Shown: in pieces, positions 5,255 to 51,873 of the stretch
Position numbering within the stretch: position 1 is the stretch's first letter
Layout of the letters: every line of letters starts with the position of its first letter
Position numbers and translations under genes: made by a program
Notes under the pieces: model-generated
What the model saw: only the letters and a program-made list of their open reading frames with translations
Databases searched by the model: none
Told to the model about the DNA's origin: nothing
Assembly (NCBI GenBank): GCA_030431755.1
Contig: JAUIIK010000020.1
Location: 1-52,022 of the forward strand
From: Chloroflexia bacterium
Lineage (GTDB): Bacteria > Chloroflexota > Chloroflexia > Thermomicrobiales > CFX8
Length of the DNA: 52,022 nt
Direction of reading: 5' to 3'

Positions 5255-7080
5255 TGACGAACCACGGCCGACTGAGCGACAACGATCTCGACGCGCTGAT
5301 CCGTGGCCTTGGAGAGCATGTTGATTATCCACCGACGCCGGACTTCGCTGTTTCCTGGAGAAGTAGTGGCATACAGGCAGAGTCAACGATGGGGCGTAGG
5401 TCTCGTGCGACCAACTTGGCTGCGCCGGAGACAACTACCTCGGAACCCGGCGCGACACAGTGGTTGGAGCCTGCGCAACAGGGCAGCGAATGGCGTCAGG
5501 CTGCACGGTTGATTGTTGCCGGAATTGCTGCATTGGTGGTCGGTGTGTTGATCGTGTTAGTGCTCCGCGAGATGCGAAGCAGTTCGCCGGAGATAGACCG
5601 CGCAGGTTCGAGCGAGCTGCGGGAGGTATTCATATCGACGTTTAGCACGTCAACAGGCGCGAATGAGTCTTTCAGCTTCCTGCTTGTGCGCGATGCGAGG
5701 TCGCTTAAGGAGGTCTTTACTGTTGAGGTTGATCTTGGAGGCTGGTTCACCGTCTCGCCGGATGGAGCACACATTTACGCGTCTGGTGATCACTACTTGT
5801 CAGCTATCGATTCTGCTACTGGGGGAACCGTCTGGGAGAAGCCATTAGCGGATCGCAGGTTGCGCGAGTTCGGCATCCCTGGTTTGGCAACTCCGGCAAT
5901 GTCACCGGACGGTACACGGCTGTATCTCTACAGCACGGAGTCCGGATTCTCGTACCGGATCGAAGAACTCGACGCCGCAACCGGCGAGCCGCTCCGAACA
6001 TCCGACGTGTTCGACCACCAGTGCAACAGCAGGATCTATCCGTCACCGGACGGCAAAGCGCTCTACCTCCCCTGTCATAACGACAGCGTCGATGTGATTG
6101 ATATCGAGACGCTGCAGCCGCAACCGCCACTGGATCTTGAACCTGTTGAAGTCGCGCAGACCGTCAGCGGGCACGCTCTCTATGTGCTGTCCAGCGACGG
6201 CGAAATAGCGACGATCGATACGAACGCACAGCAAGTCGTTGCGCGGGCGCAGTTGCTGGACCTACCCGCAGGAGATGCATTCCCGATCATCGCCTACATG
6301 GCGCTGTCGAACGATGACGCGACGCTGGCGGTGGCGTTGACCGACGACGTTGTTCGTGGTCCGACGTTCACCTACGAATACCGCCTGTATGAGGTCGGTA
6401 GCTGGCAGGAGGTCGGCCGTGTGTCGCCTGGGAGTCCGATCGTAGCGGGTGGCCTGACGCCGGATCACACGGGAGGATTTCTCATTGTGGAACAAGATGA
6501 GGGTGCGGCTCTACGTCTGGATCGCGACGGCCTCGAATCCCTGGTGTATGACCTTGACGACGGACGCGACGCAAACTACCAGCGCACGGTGGCGGCGACG
6601 ATCGCCGCTGCCGCGGAAGCTGACGCGTCCTGCCCGGTGACGCCTCAAACGGCCAATCAGGAGATTCGGGAGAGATACGAGTTCGGTGATTTCCGCACCG
6701 TTGAAGTGGCCGACATGTATCTCAATTTCTGGGGCACGTCGTATGATGGCGAGTCGGTTGGCTATACCGCGATGATGTCTCACCCGAATGGCTATGAGGA
6801 AGGTGGCTGGTACTACATCACACTTCAGTTCGTCGTTCCTGACCTGGATAGGTCCGTTGTGGTTTCCGGCTTCCGCCTCGACACGGCAGGCGACCTTCGG
6901 TTTGGCGACAGTAATAATCCAGCGAGCAGCGTCGAACTCTGGCCGTCGCCGGGTATGGAAACGATAGGTCTGGGAGCGCTTCGCCGGACGGATGCGCGGG
7001 TGACAGGTTCAGGCTGCTTCGGGATAGCCGTCCAATGGGATGATAATGATGAAACGGTCGTCTTCGAGGTTGTCGACTAG
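5254..7080 (+). CDS. Membrane-anchored anti-sigma-like protein with outer beta-propeller
   Basis: Translation is coupled to the sigma gene by a TGATG overlap. The 608-residue protein has an 84-residue cytoplasmic part opening with LSDNDLDALIRGLGEHVDYPPTPDF, one membrane segment at about 85-105, and about 500 residues outside. The outside part has at least four WD40/YVTN-type blades marked by VSPDGAHIYAS, SPDGTRLYLYS, SPDGKALYLPC and LSNDDATLAVAL. After about residue 440 a second, unidentified beta-rich domain begins; it contains two cysteines that might form a disulphide. The cytoplasmic part lacks the zinc-binding His-Cys-Cys motif of ZAS anti-sigma factors. The role as anti-sigma factor is inferred from coupling and topology; the propeller may be the sensor. 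Confidence 0.75.
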   Translation: MTNHGRLSDNDLDALIRGLGEHVDYPPTPDFAVSWRSSGIQAESTMGRRSRATNLAAPETTTSEPGATQWLEPAQQGSEWRQAARLIVAGIAALVVGVLIVLVLREMRSSSPEIDRAGSSELREVFISTFSTSTGANESFSFLLVRDARSLKEVFTVEVDLGGWFTVSPDGAHIYASGDHYLSAIDSATGGTVWEKPLADRRLREFGIPGLATPAMSPDGTRLYLYSTESGFSYRIEELDAATGEPLRTSDVFDHQCNSRIYPSPDGKALYLPCHNDSVDVIDIETLQPQPPLDLEPVEVAQTVSGHALYVLSSDGEIATIDTNAQQVVARAQLLDLPAGDAFPIIAYMALSNDDATLAVALTDDVVRGPTFTYEYRLYEVGSWQEVGRVSPGSPIVAGGLTPDHTGGFLIVEQDEGAALRLDRDGLESLVYDLDDGRDANYQRTVAATIAAAAEADASCPVTPQTANQEIRERYEFGDFRTVEVADMYLNFWGTSYDGESVGYTAMMSHPNGYEEGGWYYITLQFVVPDLDRSVVVSGFRLDTAGDLRFGDSNNPASSVELWPSPGMETIGLGALRRTDARVTGSGCFGIAVQWDDNDETVVFEVVD

Positions 7081-41220: not shown

Positions 41221-42222
41221 GTGCCGCAGATAATCGGTGACAACATCGACAGGCTATGCGCTATCGAGATGCGGACGGCGGAGGTCGACGGCGGCATCCC
41301 GCGTGGGGTGCTCCAGCCGCTCTTCGCCGCGGCCCGCGAGCGCGCCGGTGCGCCGATGAGCTACCTGGCCGCGCAAGGGCTGCTCGACAACGTCGCGTCC
41401 GGCGACCGGGTGTTGATCCTCTGCGGCTCCGGCTCGCCGCCCTACCTGCCCTATGGCGAGACTGACGGGCCGCTCGGCGGGGCCGCCGTTGCCAGGGCGC
41501 TCGACCTGGGGCTGGGCGCGAAGCCGGTCTTGATCTGTGAGGCGCACATGATGGGGCCGAATCGCGCCGCCTTCGCCGCCGCCGGTCTCGAAGTCCACCT
41601 GGAGGAGATCTTCGCGGTCCGGCCGCACAGCGCGCTGGCTGTCGCCTTTCCTTACGGTATGGACCGCCGGGCCGAGATCGAGGCGCTCTTCGACGATCAG
41701 CAGCCGTCCGCGGTCGTCTTCGTCGAGCGCACCGGACCGAACGCCGAAGGCATCTTTCACTCAATCACCGGCACGGCGAAGAAGCCGGACGAAGTGCTTG
41801 CCAACCACCTCTTTGCGGAGATCGCCCGCGAGCGCGGCATCTTCACGATCGGTGTCGGCGATGGCGGCAACGAAGTCGGCTTCGGCAACATCCACGAACA
41901 CGCGCGGGCAATTCAGCCTGCCTCACACGCGATCACCGTGACGGAGACCGATGTCCTCGTCTGCGCGGCGATCTCGAACTGGGGCGGCTACGGCATCGCC
42001 GCGATGCTCGGCTACCTGCTCGGTAACCCGGACCTCGTCCAGGACAAGGACATCGAATACCGGATGCTGTCGTGGGCGGTGAAGCGCGGCGCGTCCGACG
42101 GGCTCTACACCAGCCCGACGATGTTCGTCGACGGCACCTCCTGGCAGACGCAGCAGGCGCTTGTCACGATGCTGCGCGAGATCGTTGCCAACGGTCTCAA
42201 GGAGGTCCGGCGGGCATTCTAG
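41221..42222 (+). CDS. DUF4392 / D-glutamate-cyclase-like protein
   Basis: A 333-residue protein of the DUF4392 group, related to the C-terminal domain of mammalian D-glutamate cyclase. LILCGSGSPPYLPYGETDGPLGG, VFVERTGPNAEGIFHSITG and GVGDGGNEVGFGNIHE are the conserved stretches. The mammalian enzyme converts D-glutamate to 5-oxoproline; activity here is inferred. AAGGGGAA stands before the GTG start. The TAG stop is formed by the CTAG end of the element at 42219-42537, so the original C-terminus may have been different by a few residues. A few metabolic genes for D-amino acids nearby (M55 peptidase) are compatible with this role. Confidence 0.83.
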   Translation: MPQIIGDNIDRLCAIEMRTAEVDGGIPRGVLQPLFAAARERAGAPMSYLAAQGLLDNVASGDRVLILCGSGSPPYLPYGETDGPLGGAAVARALDLGLGAKPVLICEAHMMGPNRAAFAAAGLEVHLEEIFAVRPHSALAVAFPYGMDRRAEIEALFDDQQPSAVVFVERTGPNAEGIFHSITGTAKKPDEVLANHLFAEIARERGIFTIGVGDGGNEVGFGNIHEHARAIQPASHAITVTETDVLVCAAISNWGGYGIAAMLGYLLGNPDLVQDKDIEYRMLSWAVKRGASDGLYTSPTMFVDGTSWQTQQALVTMLREIVANGLKEVRRAF

Positions 42223-46361: not shown

Positions 46362-47198
46362 ATGAACAGTGTCGTGAGCTGGACAGCTGAACGCGGCGAA
46401 CTCTCGCTCCCTGAATTGCGCCGCCGGGCGTTGGCGCGTATCGCCGACGCACGCCTGGCGGGACATGGCACGGGCCATGCGCGGGAGATCAACCTCCACG
46501 CCGTCCAGCGCTTCATCGACGGCGACCCACACTGCGCCTGGAACTTCGAGGATAGCGCCGCGTTCGCCTTTGACGATGTGCTCGTGATGATCGCAAGCAT
46601 CACCGGCTGCTCGGTCGATCCGGCCATGGAGGCGGGCGACGGCTATATCTCGCCACACAAGACGCTCGACGGCATCGAGGAGGCCGCCGCCCGGATCGCG
46701 GCCGTCGCGCGCGGCGGCGGCAGGATATTGCTGGCAACCGGCCATCCCGGAGCGCTGTTGAGCTACTACAACGGCATCGCCGATCTAATCGGACTTTGGG
46801 GCGGGCGCGTGATACACCCCGCCCGCGGCGATGCCGTCCCGCCGCGCTATTTCATCGACTACGTCGGCAACGTCGCGGTGATGACCGACTACGCCAGCCT
46901 GCCGCACACGCACGGGCACGAGGCGATGGATGTGCTGCTTACCGGGGCTGACGCCATAGACCTGGTGATTGCCGATCACGGCTATGCCGGGGCGGCGATC
47001 AAGGCTGGGCTGCCGGTCATCTCGGTCATGGATACGAATGATCCGGCGCTGGCCGTCTGGAAGTACGCCGGCGCCGATGTCACGATCATCCCGATCGACG
47101 ACAACCGGCCCTTCAGCGCCTACGACCCGGTCGTTGATCTGCTGCGCGAGTTCGGCTCCCGGTCGTTGCCCCCTGGCGCGGGGTTGCGGCTCAGATAA
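46362..47198 (+). CDS. Phosphatase-like (PF15698-type) protein
   Basis: A 278-residue protein resembling the Phosphatase family common in actinobacteria. GRILLATGHPGALLSYYNGIADL and VIHPARGDAVPPRYFIDYVGNVAV, then LVIADHGYAGAAIKAGLPVI and SVMDTNDPALAV are the main conserved stretches; DTNDPAL and IADHG may hold catalytic or metal-binding residues. The activity in this family is poorly tested. The ATG at 46362 has GGAGGAAGG nine bases ahead, better than the TTG two codons earlier. It overlaps the end of the convergent M55 peptidase gene by eight bases. Confidence 0.72.
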   Translation: MNSVVSWTAERGELSLPELRRRALARIADARLAGHGTGHAREINLHAVQRFIDGDPHCAWNFEDSAAFAFDDVLVMIASITGCSVDPAMEAGDGYISPHKTLDGIEEAAARIAAVARGGGRILLATGHPGALLSYYNGIADLIGLWGGRVIHPARGDAVPPRYFIDYVGNVAVMTDYASLPHTHGHEAMDVLLTGADAIDLVIADHGYAGAAIKAGLPVISVMDTNDPALAVWKYAGADVTIIPIDDNRPFSAYDPVVDLLREFGSRSLPPGAGLRLR

Positions 47199-48084
47199 GC
47201 CACTCCGCTTCATTCGCGTTGGCCCAGGCTTCCAATAGCTCCCTGCGCCGGGCCGGTTCAGTGCGCGGCGAGAATAGCTCGCTGAATGACGCGAACATCG
47301 CGCCGGCGAGGGCCGGTTCTGCGTCGTACCACCAGTCCGTCGCCGACTTCGCCAGAACCGCTGGACTCGTGCGACGCAGCTCGAACTGCCCGTCGACCCG
47401 ATCCGCCAACCAGGGTGGCAGGCTGATGGCGAAGACGAAGCGTTCGGGGATCGCTGCCGGAGCCCGCTCTCCGGCATGTTCGGCAGACCAGGCAGCGAAT
47501 GCCTGAATCGCCGCGAAGCTCTCCTCGGGGCTATAGAGCGGGGTCGCTTCCCGGCGGTTTTCCGCCTTCTTGACCGCCAGAAATGGCGTGCCCTCAACTG
47601 CGCCGTCAAGCTGGCGGCCGAGCGCTTCGTCGCCGGTGACGCCGAGCAACGGCAGTCCGCTGCGCCAGGCGTTGACATGCACCTCGGTCACTGGCTTGCC
47701 GTCGACCGACACTCGCATGTCCAATCCATTCGTATGGCTCATGAAGCCGTCCGGTGTGCCGCAGCGCGCGTGCCAGCCAAGCTGGAAGCATGCGTCATGC
47801 TCCCTGGCGAGCGCGTCGTTCTTCAGGAACTGATCGGCGCTTGCCCACTCGACGTTTTCCGGCATGCGGTCCAGGTCGACGATGGGATCATCCGGTGGAC
47901 CGTGCAATACGCAGATCGTGGCATGCGTGGCCCCTCCGGTGAACAGCCCCTCGACCGCCGCGAGCGTGTCAAGCGTCGTCGCCTCTTTGCCGGACTCCCA
48001 ATACTCGGAGTATTCCGGCCATAACTCCCTGAAGCTGGCAATCTGTGAAATGCCTTCCATATCAACCAGGAGCAGAACTCGCAC
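47191..48084 (-). CDS. dppA: M55-family D-aminopeptidase (DppA-like)
   Basis: A 297-residue protein of the DppA family, zinc-dependent D-stereospecific aminopeptidases that release D-alanine from D-Ala-D-Ala or similar. The opening VRVLLLVDMEGIS aligns with the DppA start and has the first zinc ligands (Asp8, Glu10). The GWHARCGTPDGFMSHTNGL and VTEVHVNAWRSGLPLLGVTG stretches follow, with ligand His residues. The GTG at 48084 is chosen by this alignment; the ATG at 48102 would lie back to back with the neighbouring start. The C-terminal 70 residues extend beyond short family members. Confidence 0.87.
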   Translation of the reverse strand: MRVLLLVDMEGISQIASFRELWPEYSEYWESGKEATTLDTLAAVEGLFTGGATHATICVLHGPPDDPIVDLDRMPENVEWASADQFLKNDALAREHDACFQLGWHARCGTPDGFMSHTNGLDMRVSVDGKPVTEVHVNAWRSGLPLLGVTGDEALGRQLDGAVEGTPFLAVKKAENRREATPLYSPEESFAAIQAFAAWSAEHAGERAPAAIPERFVFAISLPPWLADRVDGQFELRRTSPAVLAKSATDWWYDAEPALAGAMFASFSELFSPRTEPARRRELLEAWANANEAEWLI

Positions 48085-48102
48085 AGACAAGGGGCCTTTC
48101 AT

Positions 48103-49215: not shown

Positions 49216-49584
49216 TTACTGCATCTCCTCGGGCTCGATCTGGTTGAACCAGCCGAGGTCGATTGCCAGCCAGATGGTCTTGGTGAGCGGGTAGAAGATG
49301 GCCGGAAAGAGCAGGTTGACGCCGACGGCGGTGAAGATCAGCGGGTTGACTGGCAGCGTCGGCCAGGTCCAGATCGCAACAACGGCGATGAGCAAGACCG
49401 TCAGGAGCTCGGCGACGACAATGTTCACCGTCATCGCGCCCACGTAGTAGCCCTCCTCTCGCACCAGGTCCAACCCGCAGCGCGGACACGCGTCCTTCAT
49501 CGCGAAGAAGCCTTTGAAGATCTTCCATTCGCCGCAGCGCGGGCAACGTCGAGTAAGCCCGCGCATCAACAATCGTTCTTTCAT
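49216..49584 (-). CDS. DUF983-family membrane protein
   Basis: A 122-residue protein with an N-terminal zinc-ribbon (TRRCPRCGEWKIFKGFFAMK and CPRCGLDLV) and two membrane helices (VVAELLTVLLIAVVAIWTW and LIFTAVGVNLLFPAIFYPL) joined by a short outer loop. This is the DUF983 layout. The four cysteines likely bind zinc on the inner face. It may aid cytochrome oxidase or membrane complexes as such proteins often lie near them, but no such gene is here. The ATG at 49584 was chosen; ATG 49566 also fits. Confidence 0.87.
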   Translation of the reverse strand: MKERLLMRGLTRRCPRCGEWKIFKGFFAMKDACPRCGLDLVREEGYYVGAMTVNIVVAELLTVLLIAVVAIWTWPTLPVNPLIFTAVGVNLLFPAIFYPLTKTIWLAIDLGWFNQIEPEEMQ

Positions 49585-49675
49585 CGAGTCCAGTGCGCTC
49601 CAACTAGCTACCCAGGCCAATGCCTTCGCCTATGATTCCAGATATCGAACCGCTGTGGGGAAACGTAGGACGAAG

Positions 49676-50875
49676 ATGACCGACCATATCGGGCAGGCGC
49701 TCGATAGACATCTCAATCAGGATCTGCTCGTTGAGCTGATGCAGCGCTTTGCGCGCGTGCCGACCGCGGTCCCGCCCGGCCACGAGACGCTGATGGCGCC
49801 GGACGACCCGAAGCTTGTGCACTATGTCCAGCAGGTTGTGCGGCCGCAGCTCGAAGCATGTGAAGGACTCGCGCTGCTCGACGCGCCCGTGAATAATCTG
49901 GTCGCGGCAATGGGCAGTGGAGATACTGCGAACTCGCTGCTGCTCATGAACTATACGCCGACGCAGCACAACAACTTGATGGATGATCCCTTCTCCGGGA
50001 AGCTGGCCAGCGCCGCCGCCTACGGCCGCGATGAGCCGGCAGTCTTCGGCCAGGGCATCAGCCAGAACAAGGTCCATCAGGCGGTCATGGCGGCCGTGCT
50101 GCGGATGTTGGCGGCGGCGGGTATCGAACTCCGTGGCCGGCTCTACTGGGCGGTTAACAACGAAGGCCGCAGCAGCCACGCCTGTTCCGACGCCATCCTC
50201 GATGCGCTGCCGGCGCTGCCCAGTTTCGGGATCATCCAGATCGGCACCGGCCTCGATCTCTCGCTCGGCAACCGGGGCCGGGTCGACGTCGTCGTGCATG
50301 TGCGCGGGCGGGCCGCGCACTCCAGCGAGCCGGAACAGGCAGCCAACGCTATCGAGGGCGCAAGCGAGGTGATCCAGCGGCTCAAGAGCCTGATATGGAC
50401 CGACGAGCATGACCGGCTCGGCGGCCGCCACGCCGTCGTCTACAAAGCGCGCTACGCCCCGCTCGCGCCGCATACGCTGCCCTCCGACGCCTGGCTGACC
50501 ATCGACCGCCGGCTGCTGCCGGGCGATGATCCAGCTGCTGCTGTCCGGGAGATCGAGGAAGTGATCGGCGATCTGTCGCCCTTTGAGTACACCGTGGAAC
50601 CAGACGTGATGATGCTGCCGGCGGTCGTCGATCCGAGCCTCGGCTGGGTCGCCGCGCTCGAACGCGCCCACCAGGCCGAGTTGGGAGAGTCACCGGCGCA
50701 GCTCTGGGGGCGTGGCAGCTTCGACGCCGGTGGCCCCTGCGCCCGTGGCGTGCCGACGGTAATGTACGGCGCGAGCGGCGGGGATGGCTTGCTCGGCGCG
50801 GATTTCGTCACCGTCTCCGATGCCGTCAGCGAAGCCCGCATCCTGGCGCGGTTGATCTTGGAGGAACTGGCATGA
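49676..50875 (+). CDS. M20-fold protein with most metal ligands lost
   Basis: A 399-residue protein with the M20 peptidase layout: a split alpha/beta domain around an insert with the dimerisation His in HVRGRAAHSSEPEQAANAIEG, and a late SFDAGG stretch. Compared with known M20 enzymes, the metal-site residues are replaced: the GHxD position reads NYTPTQ (residues 92-97), the bridging Asp of the DDKG motif reads SQNK (129-132), the Glu-Glu pair reads NNEG (161-164), and the C-terminal His is missing. TAGGA stands six bases before the ATG. Its stop overlaps the LLM gene (ATGA). It may act as a binding protein, or use another chemistry. Confidence 0.8.
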   Translation: MTDHIGQALDRHLNQDLLVELMQRFARVPTAVPPGHETLMAPDDPKLVHYVQQVVRPQLEACEGLALLDAPVNNLVAAMGSGDTANSLLLMNYTPTQHNNLMDDPFSGKLASAAAYGRDEPAVFGQGISQNKVHQAVMAAVLRMLAAAGIELRGRLYWAVNNEGRSSHACSDAILDALPALPSFGIIQIGTGLDLSLGNRGRVDVVVHVRGRAAHSSEPEQAANAIEGASEVIQRLKSLIWTDEHDRLGGRHAVVYKARYAPLAPHTLPSDAWLTIDRRLLPGDDPAAAVREIEEVIGDLSPFEYTVEPDVMMLPAVVDPSLGWVAALERAHQAELGESPAQLWGRGSFDAGGPCARGVPTVMYGASGGDGLLGADFVTVSDAVSEARILARLILEELA

Positions 50876-51873
50876 GCTACGCGCTTGGATTGAGCCTGCC
50901 GAACCGTGGCGCGCTCTTTGGCTACCCGGTTGACGAGCTGCTGGATGCCGCCGAGCTGGCCGAGGAGACTGGCGTCTTCAATTCCGTCTGGGTTGGTGAC
51001 AACTACCTGTCGAAGCCGCGTCTGGAAGCGCTGGTGACGTTGGCGGCGATTGCCGGGCGCACGCGGCGGGTGCGGCTTGGCACGATCTGCCTGGCCAGCT
51101 TCAACCTGCGGAACCCGCTCGAGCTGGCGATCCAGTGGGCGAGCCTCGATGTGCTATCGAAGGGCCGGACCGATCTCTATGTCTGTCTCGGCGCGGCCGC
51201 CAGCAACGGGCCGCAGTTCGCCGCCGAGCTCGACGCGTTCGAGCGGCGCTCGGTCGACCGTGTGCCCCGGATGGTCGAAGGTGTCGAGCTGCTGCGGCGC
51301 TTCTGGACGGAGACGGCGGTTAGCCACGCTGGCGAGTTCTATCGCTTTGAAGAGATCAACGCCCTGCCGAAGCCTGTCCAGCAACCGATGCCGATCGGCA
51401 TCGCGGTCAACCCCGGCCACCCGGCCCACGGCAAGGCGCTCGACCCGGCTGTCGAGGAGCGCGCATTGCGCCGCGTCGGCCGCATCGCCAACGGCTGGCA
51501 GACTGACGCGACGCCGGTCGAGGTCTTTAGTGAGAGATGGGAGCGCATCCAGAGCTACGCGGAGGAATACGGGCGCGGCGGCGAGGTGCGCCAGTCATGC
51601 CTGCACCTGATGGTCAACATCAACGAGGATGAGGAACGCGCCCGGCGGGAGTCGGTCGATTTCCTCGACCGCTACTATGGCGTCGGGGCGATACCCGAGG
51701 AGGCCGTCAACCTGTGGTTGGCAGTCGGCTCTCCGGCCACGGTCGCCGAGAAGATCGCGGCCTACATCGAAGCCGGCTGCACCGACCCAGTGCTCCGCTT
51801 CTGCACCCCCGACCAACGCGGCCAGATCGAACGTTGCGCTAGCGAGGTCGTGCCGCTGTTGCCGTCGTGGTAA
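50872..51873 (+). CDS. LLM-class (F420-dependent) oxidoreductase
   Basis: A 333-residue luciferase-like oxidoreductase. LGLSLPNRGALFGYPVDELL, GVFNSVWVGDNYLSKPRLEAL, RVRLGTICLASFNLRNPLELAIQW and MVEGVELLRRFWTE fit the F420-dependent methylene-H4MPT-reductase-like branch, where the early Trp-Val-Gly-Asp segment contacts the cofactor. Substrate unknown. The ATG overlaps the stop of the M20-like gene (ATGA), so the two are co-translated and probably act in one pathway. The gene ends 17 bases from the convergent glycogen phosphorylase. Confidence 0.92.
   Translation: MSYALGLSLPNRGALFGYPVDELLDAAELAEETGVFNSVWVGDNYLSKPRLEALVTLAAIAGRTRRVRLGTICLASFNLRNPLELAIQWASLDVLSKGRTDLYVCLGAAASNGPQFAAELDAFERRSVDRVPRMVEGVELLRRFWTETAVSHAGEFYRFEEINALPKPVQQPMPIGIAVNPGHPAHGKALDPAVEERALRRVGRIANGWQTDATPVEVFSERWERIQSYAEEYGRGGEVRQSCLHLMVNINEDEERARRESVDFLDRYYGVGAIPEEAVNLWLAVGSPATVAEKIAAYIEAGCTDPVLRFCTPDQRGQIERCASEVVPLLPSW

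Follow-up and report, generated by a model that had tools for sequence, protein, structure and literature searches.

The M20-like gene and its overlap with an oxidoreductase gene

The window, the whole 52,022-nucleotide stretch of DNA that we analyzed, is contig C191 of a 5.1-Mb draft genome whose relatives lie within the Chloroflexota. Close to its end, an intact open reading frame encodes an M20-like protein, with the sequence AGGA at positions 49667 to 49670, 5' of the ATG. The stop codon of this frame shares four bases with the start of a gene for an LLM-class (luciferase-like) oxidoreductase (Table 1). An earlier note on this DNA had described both the well-formed frame without stops and the four-base overlap, and both descriptions were correct. 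A divergent DUF983 gene (49219 to 49620) lies directly upstream, and 149 bases remain between the end of the LLM gene and the end of the window. Elsewhere in the window, genes for a D-glutamate cyclase-like protein and an M55 D-aminopeptidase (41221 to 42219 and 47194 to 48102) possibly concern D-amino acid metabolism.

Table 1. Features of the M20-like/LLM locus (positions in the window; residue columns in carboxypeptidase G2 [CPG2] numbering)
Feature	Position	Strand	Remarks
M20-like ORF (P0001), metal-ligand-less M20-fold protein, 399 aa	49676..50875	+	PF07687 1.8e-13; PF01546 subthreshold; Foldseek DapE/CPG2
Y93 codon	49952..49954	+	CPG2 His112 column, zinc 1 ligand; Y in 11/11
Q130 codon	50063..50065	+	Bridging Asp141 column; Q in 8/8 core, E in 3/3 cousins
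G164-R165 codons	50165..50170	+	Glu175 (general base) and Glu176 (zinc 2 ligand) columns; alignment uncertain by one residue
I189 codon	50240..50242	+	Glu200 column, zinc 1 ligand; variable in family
H215 codon	50318..50320	+	Dimerization-domain histidine, retained
L372 codon	50789..50791	+	His385 column, zinc 2 ligand; varies in core, His in 3/3 cousins
ATGA, M20-like stop/LLM start overlap, 4 bases	50872..50875	+	Same overlap in L037, L033, and L038, two gene orders
LLM-class (luciferase-like) oxidoreductase (P0002), 333 aa	50872..51873	+	PF00296 1.7e-41; TIGR03619 below cutoff

The protein keeps an M20 fold

Pfam searches matched the M20 dimerization domain (PF07687; E value, 1.8e-13) in the M20-like protein, and PF01546 scored 24.1 bits, marginally under the curated cutoff of 24.6; the gene is absent from the 39 places in its own genome that match PF01546. 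A profile of the family detected DapE (7uoi; 5.8e-25) and CPG2 (1cg2; 1.3e-15) in the PDB. An AlphaFold2 model built from an alignment of six sequences, the window protein and related loci, had a mean pLDDT of 72.9 and a pTM of 0.77, and Foldseek matched this model to DapE (5vo3; E value, 1.3e-20; TM, 0.74/0.77) and to CPG2 (1cg2; 2.0e-20). The domain match and the Foldseek matches show an M20 catalytic-domain fold with an inserted dimerization domain, which bears out the claim of the earlier note that the fold landmarks are kept and supplies the comparison of a predicted structure with M20 enzymes that it had proposed. The model is weakest (pLDDT of <50) at residues 94 to 105, 107 to 112, 163 to 165, and 370 to 374, which are the former ligand loops. 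A scan of viral contigs with canonical M20 proteins gave a few rows, used only for deepening the structure alignment, and a scan of viral contigs with the M20-like family gave no match.

Replacement of the dizinc ligands and, in the preferred alignment, of the general base

We compared metal-site residues in an alignment that takes in 13 canonical M20 enzymes, all of which keep H112, D114, D141, E175, E176, and H385. In DapE and CPG2, the first zinc is bound by H112 and E200, the second by E176 and H385, and D141 bridges the two. ArgE binds its metals through a homologous set made up of a bridging Asp, two His, and two Glu, the candidate general acid/base being the first Glu of the pair, and the DapE equivalent of H385 belongs to the second zinc site (PMC4320195). 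The window protein has Y93 at the H112 column, P95 at D114, Q130 at D141, G164 at E175, R165 at E176, I189 at E200, and L372 at H385, so that all five dizinc ligands (His, bridging Asp, Glu, Glu/Asp, and His) are replaced. This agrees with the earlier note, which had reported the first His and Asp, the bridging Asp, the next Glu, and the last His as changed. The earlier note had also reported that one Glu of the EE pair was changed; that change is real, but our preferred alignment changes both, with E163 at the D174 position. In this alignment, the general-base column E175 holds Gly (G164) in all 11 core and cousin proteins. An alternative alignment, slipped by one residue at the GRSSH loop, places E163 at the E175 column and G164 at the E176 column; the second-zinc Glu is lost either way. 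In the window protein, no other His, Asp, or Glu residue stands at any ligand column of the alignment, an outcome on which the earlier note had made its reading depend.

Within the substrate cleft, R279, H215, and D350 are retained, H215 being the dimer-domain histidine that the earlier note had listed as kept, and H266 takes the place of the usual Asn in 11/11 core and cousin proteins. The protein is thus like DapE, ArgE, and CPG2 (M20, clan MH) in its fold, dimerization domain, dimer-domain His, DRR Arg, and TDG-type Asp but differs from these canonical enzymes in the five zinc ligands, in the general base (by the preferred alignment), and in an insertion of about eight residues, ending in DEP, that precedes the GxG loop. 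Although its descent is from the M20 fold, it fails the metal-site test that defines the peptidases; it should therefore not be classed with the M20 metallopeptidases and is best called a member of a metal-ligand-less M20-fold subfamily.

A conserved core and three cousins with part of the metal site

Seven orthologues (L031, L032, L033, L035, L036, L018, and L037) with 46 to 63% identity were found in three Chloroflexota classes; with the window protein, they make up a core of eight members. The Y, Q, G, and R at the H112, D141, E175, and E176 columns are invariant in 8/8 core members, and the E200 and H385 columns vary. The family-wide check of the NYTPTQ and SQNK positions that the earlier note had proposed showed Y93, Q97, H98, N100, Q130, and K132 to be likewise invariant in all eight. 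Altogether, 92 of the 399 residues do not vary among the core members, and they are enriched close to the former active site (34/84 positions at most four residues from former active-site positions versus 58/315 elsewhere; odds ratio, 3.0; P = 6e-5). In each pair that we compared, third codon positions diverged the most, about twofold for the window's closest orthologues. These two patterns point to constraint on the M20-like family, stronger around the old cleft. The idea that the protein is maintained for a purpose therefore holds up, with orthologues in three classes sharing the same changes.

Three distant cousins (L034, L038, and a Roseovarius/Roseivivax plasmid type, L039) have Tyr at H112, no Asp at D114, Gly at E175, Leu or Ile at E200, and Glu at D141 but keep E176 and H385. 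In a tree, the core forms one clade (100/100), and the core and the cousins group together versus the canonical enzymes (100/100). Given the zinc assignment of H112/E200 versus E176/H385 in DapE and CPG2, the cousins look as if they were stripped of the first zinc site alone. From the distribution of ligands across core and cousins, we infer a stepwise loss of metal, in which the cousins were deprived of the base and the first-zinc ligands and the core of the second-zinc ligands as well. The plasmid genes (L039, 7974 to 9146, and L040) are annotated as M20 metallopeptidase or metallo-hydrolase; they keep the second-zinc set but have neither the first-zinc ligands nor the general base, and their neighbors are genes for xanthine dehydrogenase, asparaginase, and a TRAP transporter.

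Recurrent linkage to an LLM oxidoreductase

The window oxidoreductase belongs to the LLM class by its match to PF00296 (Bac_luciferase; 143 bits versus a cutoff of 27.9), and its score against TIGR03619, the F420-dependent LLM model, is 119.6 bits versus a cutoff of 166.9. An orthologous LLM gene adjoins the M20-like gene in six genomes (the window's, L031, L018, L033, L037, and the cousin L038), with 46 to 57% identity to the window LLM and 61 to 66% for two fragments in L033. The ATGA overlap is present in four of the six, and the LLM gene comes first in L033 and L038, so that coupling occurs in both gene orders. The L033 LLM gene (5571 to 6673) is split over two reading frames by a frameshift or an assembly error. 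In a tree that omits this frameshifted gene, five of the linked LLMs fall in one 100/100 clade, which also takes in L042, a paralogue from the same genome that is not linked. L035 and L036 have a different LLM gene, divergent to the M20-like gene, and these two LLMs are 70% identical to each other. We saw no LLM gene beside L032, which lies on a 5.9-kb contig, or beside L034.

Among 400 sampled Chloroflexota genomes, 5 carry the M20-like gene and 20 carry LLM homologues (E values up to 1e-50); both occur in 3 genomes and are always adjacent there, and the other 17 of the 20 have LLM homologues without an M20-like gene. With 33 places in the window's genome matching the LLM protein, a chance LLM neighbor would be uncommon, not absurd. 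The link is real, its weight being carried by repeated orthology and coupling, and the partnership with the oxidoreductase that the earlier note had offered as a possibility gains from it. The M20-like family is usually encoded with one LLM clade and is often translationally coupled to it.

The F420 synthesis gene cofH, a single marker, was not found in five carriers (G000, G001, G025, G054, and G216; 97, 94, 92, 85, and 96% complete) and scored over the cutoff in G223, G307, and G504. Since cofH was missing from the five carriers, FMN is the likelier LLM cofactor, and an F420-dependent enzyme is disfavored. The other M20-like loci have catabolic and transport neighbors, among them an ABC transporter with an NMT1-like binding protein, amidase, xanthine dehydrogenase, isochorismatase, UbiD, and FAA hydrolase, and no common substrate emerges from these genes. 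In genomes without the M20-like gene, the LLM homologues have amidohydrolases, glyoxalase-type proteins, or a Rieske-domain protein as neighbors, and this company of other enzymes favors an enzymatic role for the M20-like protein. The glyoxalase-type pairing is itself recurrent, with LLM homologues of this same group close to such a gene in several genomes, at L105, L106, L107, and L112 (PF13468 in L105; a similar protein start in the others).

Possible function of the M20-like protein

The alignments define a small conserved M20-fold family without the dizinc ligands and, in the preferred alignment, without the general base, several of them replaced by the fixed residues Y93, Q130, G164, and R165. 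In the explanation that we favor, and for which we see about an even chance, the old zinc pocket would have become a metal-free, cationic, hydrogen-bonding pocket for an anionic intermediate. Such a pocket might hold a small molecule such as a carboxylate-bearing substrate or product, which the protein would process or hand over in one catabolic step shared with the LLM oxygenase, probably an FMN enzyme. The protein would then act as a metal-independent catabolic enzyme or as a binding subunit. The observations would be equally compatible with binding alone or with a scaffold. A more daring form of this proposal, which we hold only tentatively and think rather doubtful, is that the dizinc center was dismantled stepwise and rebuilt as a Tyr/Gln/Arg/His pocket that carries out new metal-independent chemistry on an intermediate of the LLM flavin oxygenase within the same complex.

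It is unlikely that the protein is a pseudoenzyme without chemistry of its own, which dimerizes and stabilizes or regulates the LLM enzyme. Complex partners typically show the kind of ATGA coupling that recurs here in both gene orders, and pseudopeptidases of other metallopeptidase families act via protein contacts (PMC11266112). However, the invariant residues concentrate around the old active-site cleft, and the 17 genomes with LLM homologues alone indicate that this LLM group does not need the M20-like protein. Equally improbable, or slightly more so, is a displaced and perhaps mononuclear metal site made up of the new conserved residues H98, D119/E120, E163, and H168, with which the protein would still be a metallohydrolase. 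All of them are fixed in 8/8 core members, and the cousins, with their second-zinc ligands, lack H98, D119-E120, and E163, so that these residues appear together with the loss of the ligands. None of the candidate residues stands at a canonical ligand column, though, R165 at the E176 column would disfavor a metal there, and the general base is lost in the preferred alignment.

Carriers are few in the Chloroflexota sample (5 of 400 genomes), and the assemblies are mostly drafts, which would suit a decaying or misassembled gene or an alignment artifact. We consider this reading very improbable and rejected it, as eight separately assembled genomes, belonging to three classes, have intact open reading frames with the same replacements and third codon positions vary most. 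The strict conservation of the protein and of its replacement residues in several Chloroflexota lineages, usually beside the LLM gene, speaks against decay of the gene and makes it probable that the protein was repurposed as a metal-free enzyme or a ligand binder.

Relation to known systems

We found no description of a metal-less M20 family in the open-access literature. The cysteine-salvage clusters of Bacillus subtilis (YxeK; ScmP and YtnL) also combine an LLM flavoenzyme and an M20-family protein in one pathway, but M20 proteins of the ScmP/YtnL type are metal-dependent deacetylases (PMC12757645), whereas the metal site is gone here. Like the inactive homologues of other metallopeptidases, the M20-like protein keeps a metallopeptidase fold and has lost the metal site; it differs in that ligands are replaced by specific, fixed residues. 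A review of pseudopeptidases gives no M20 example in its text (PMC11266112).

The default annotation of an M20 protein is metallopeptidase, a label that the plasmid cousin also has, and a conserved subfamily without ligands shows that such labels can mislead. Proteins with two zinc sites, with ligands for one, and with none would form a natural series for studying the passage from a metalloenzyme to a metal-free protein. If the core protein is an enzyme, it would represent new chemistry on a very common fold, and with its LLM partner it may mark a catabolic step, as yet unknown, in Chloroflexota.

Some lineages of this phylum are thought to oxidize resistant organic matter. The locus shares phylum and enzyme class with the expansions of FMNO (LLM) paralogues in SAR202/Chloroflexota, in the description of which M20 or peptidase partners are not mentioned (PMC6946804). 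In the window's genome, both families are strongly expanded, PF01546 with its 39 places and LLM with its 33 in 5.1 Mb. One further LLM homologue of this genome (L043/L062; C141, 47268 to 48011) has an in-frame TAG within the matched stretch.
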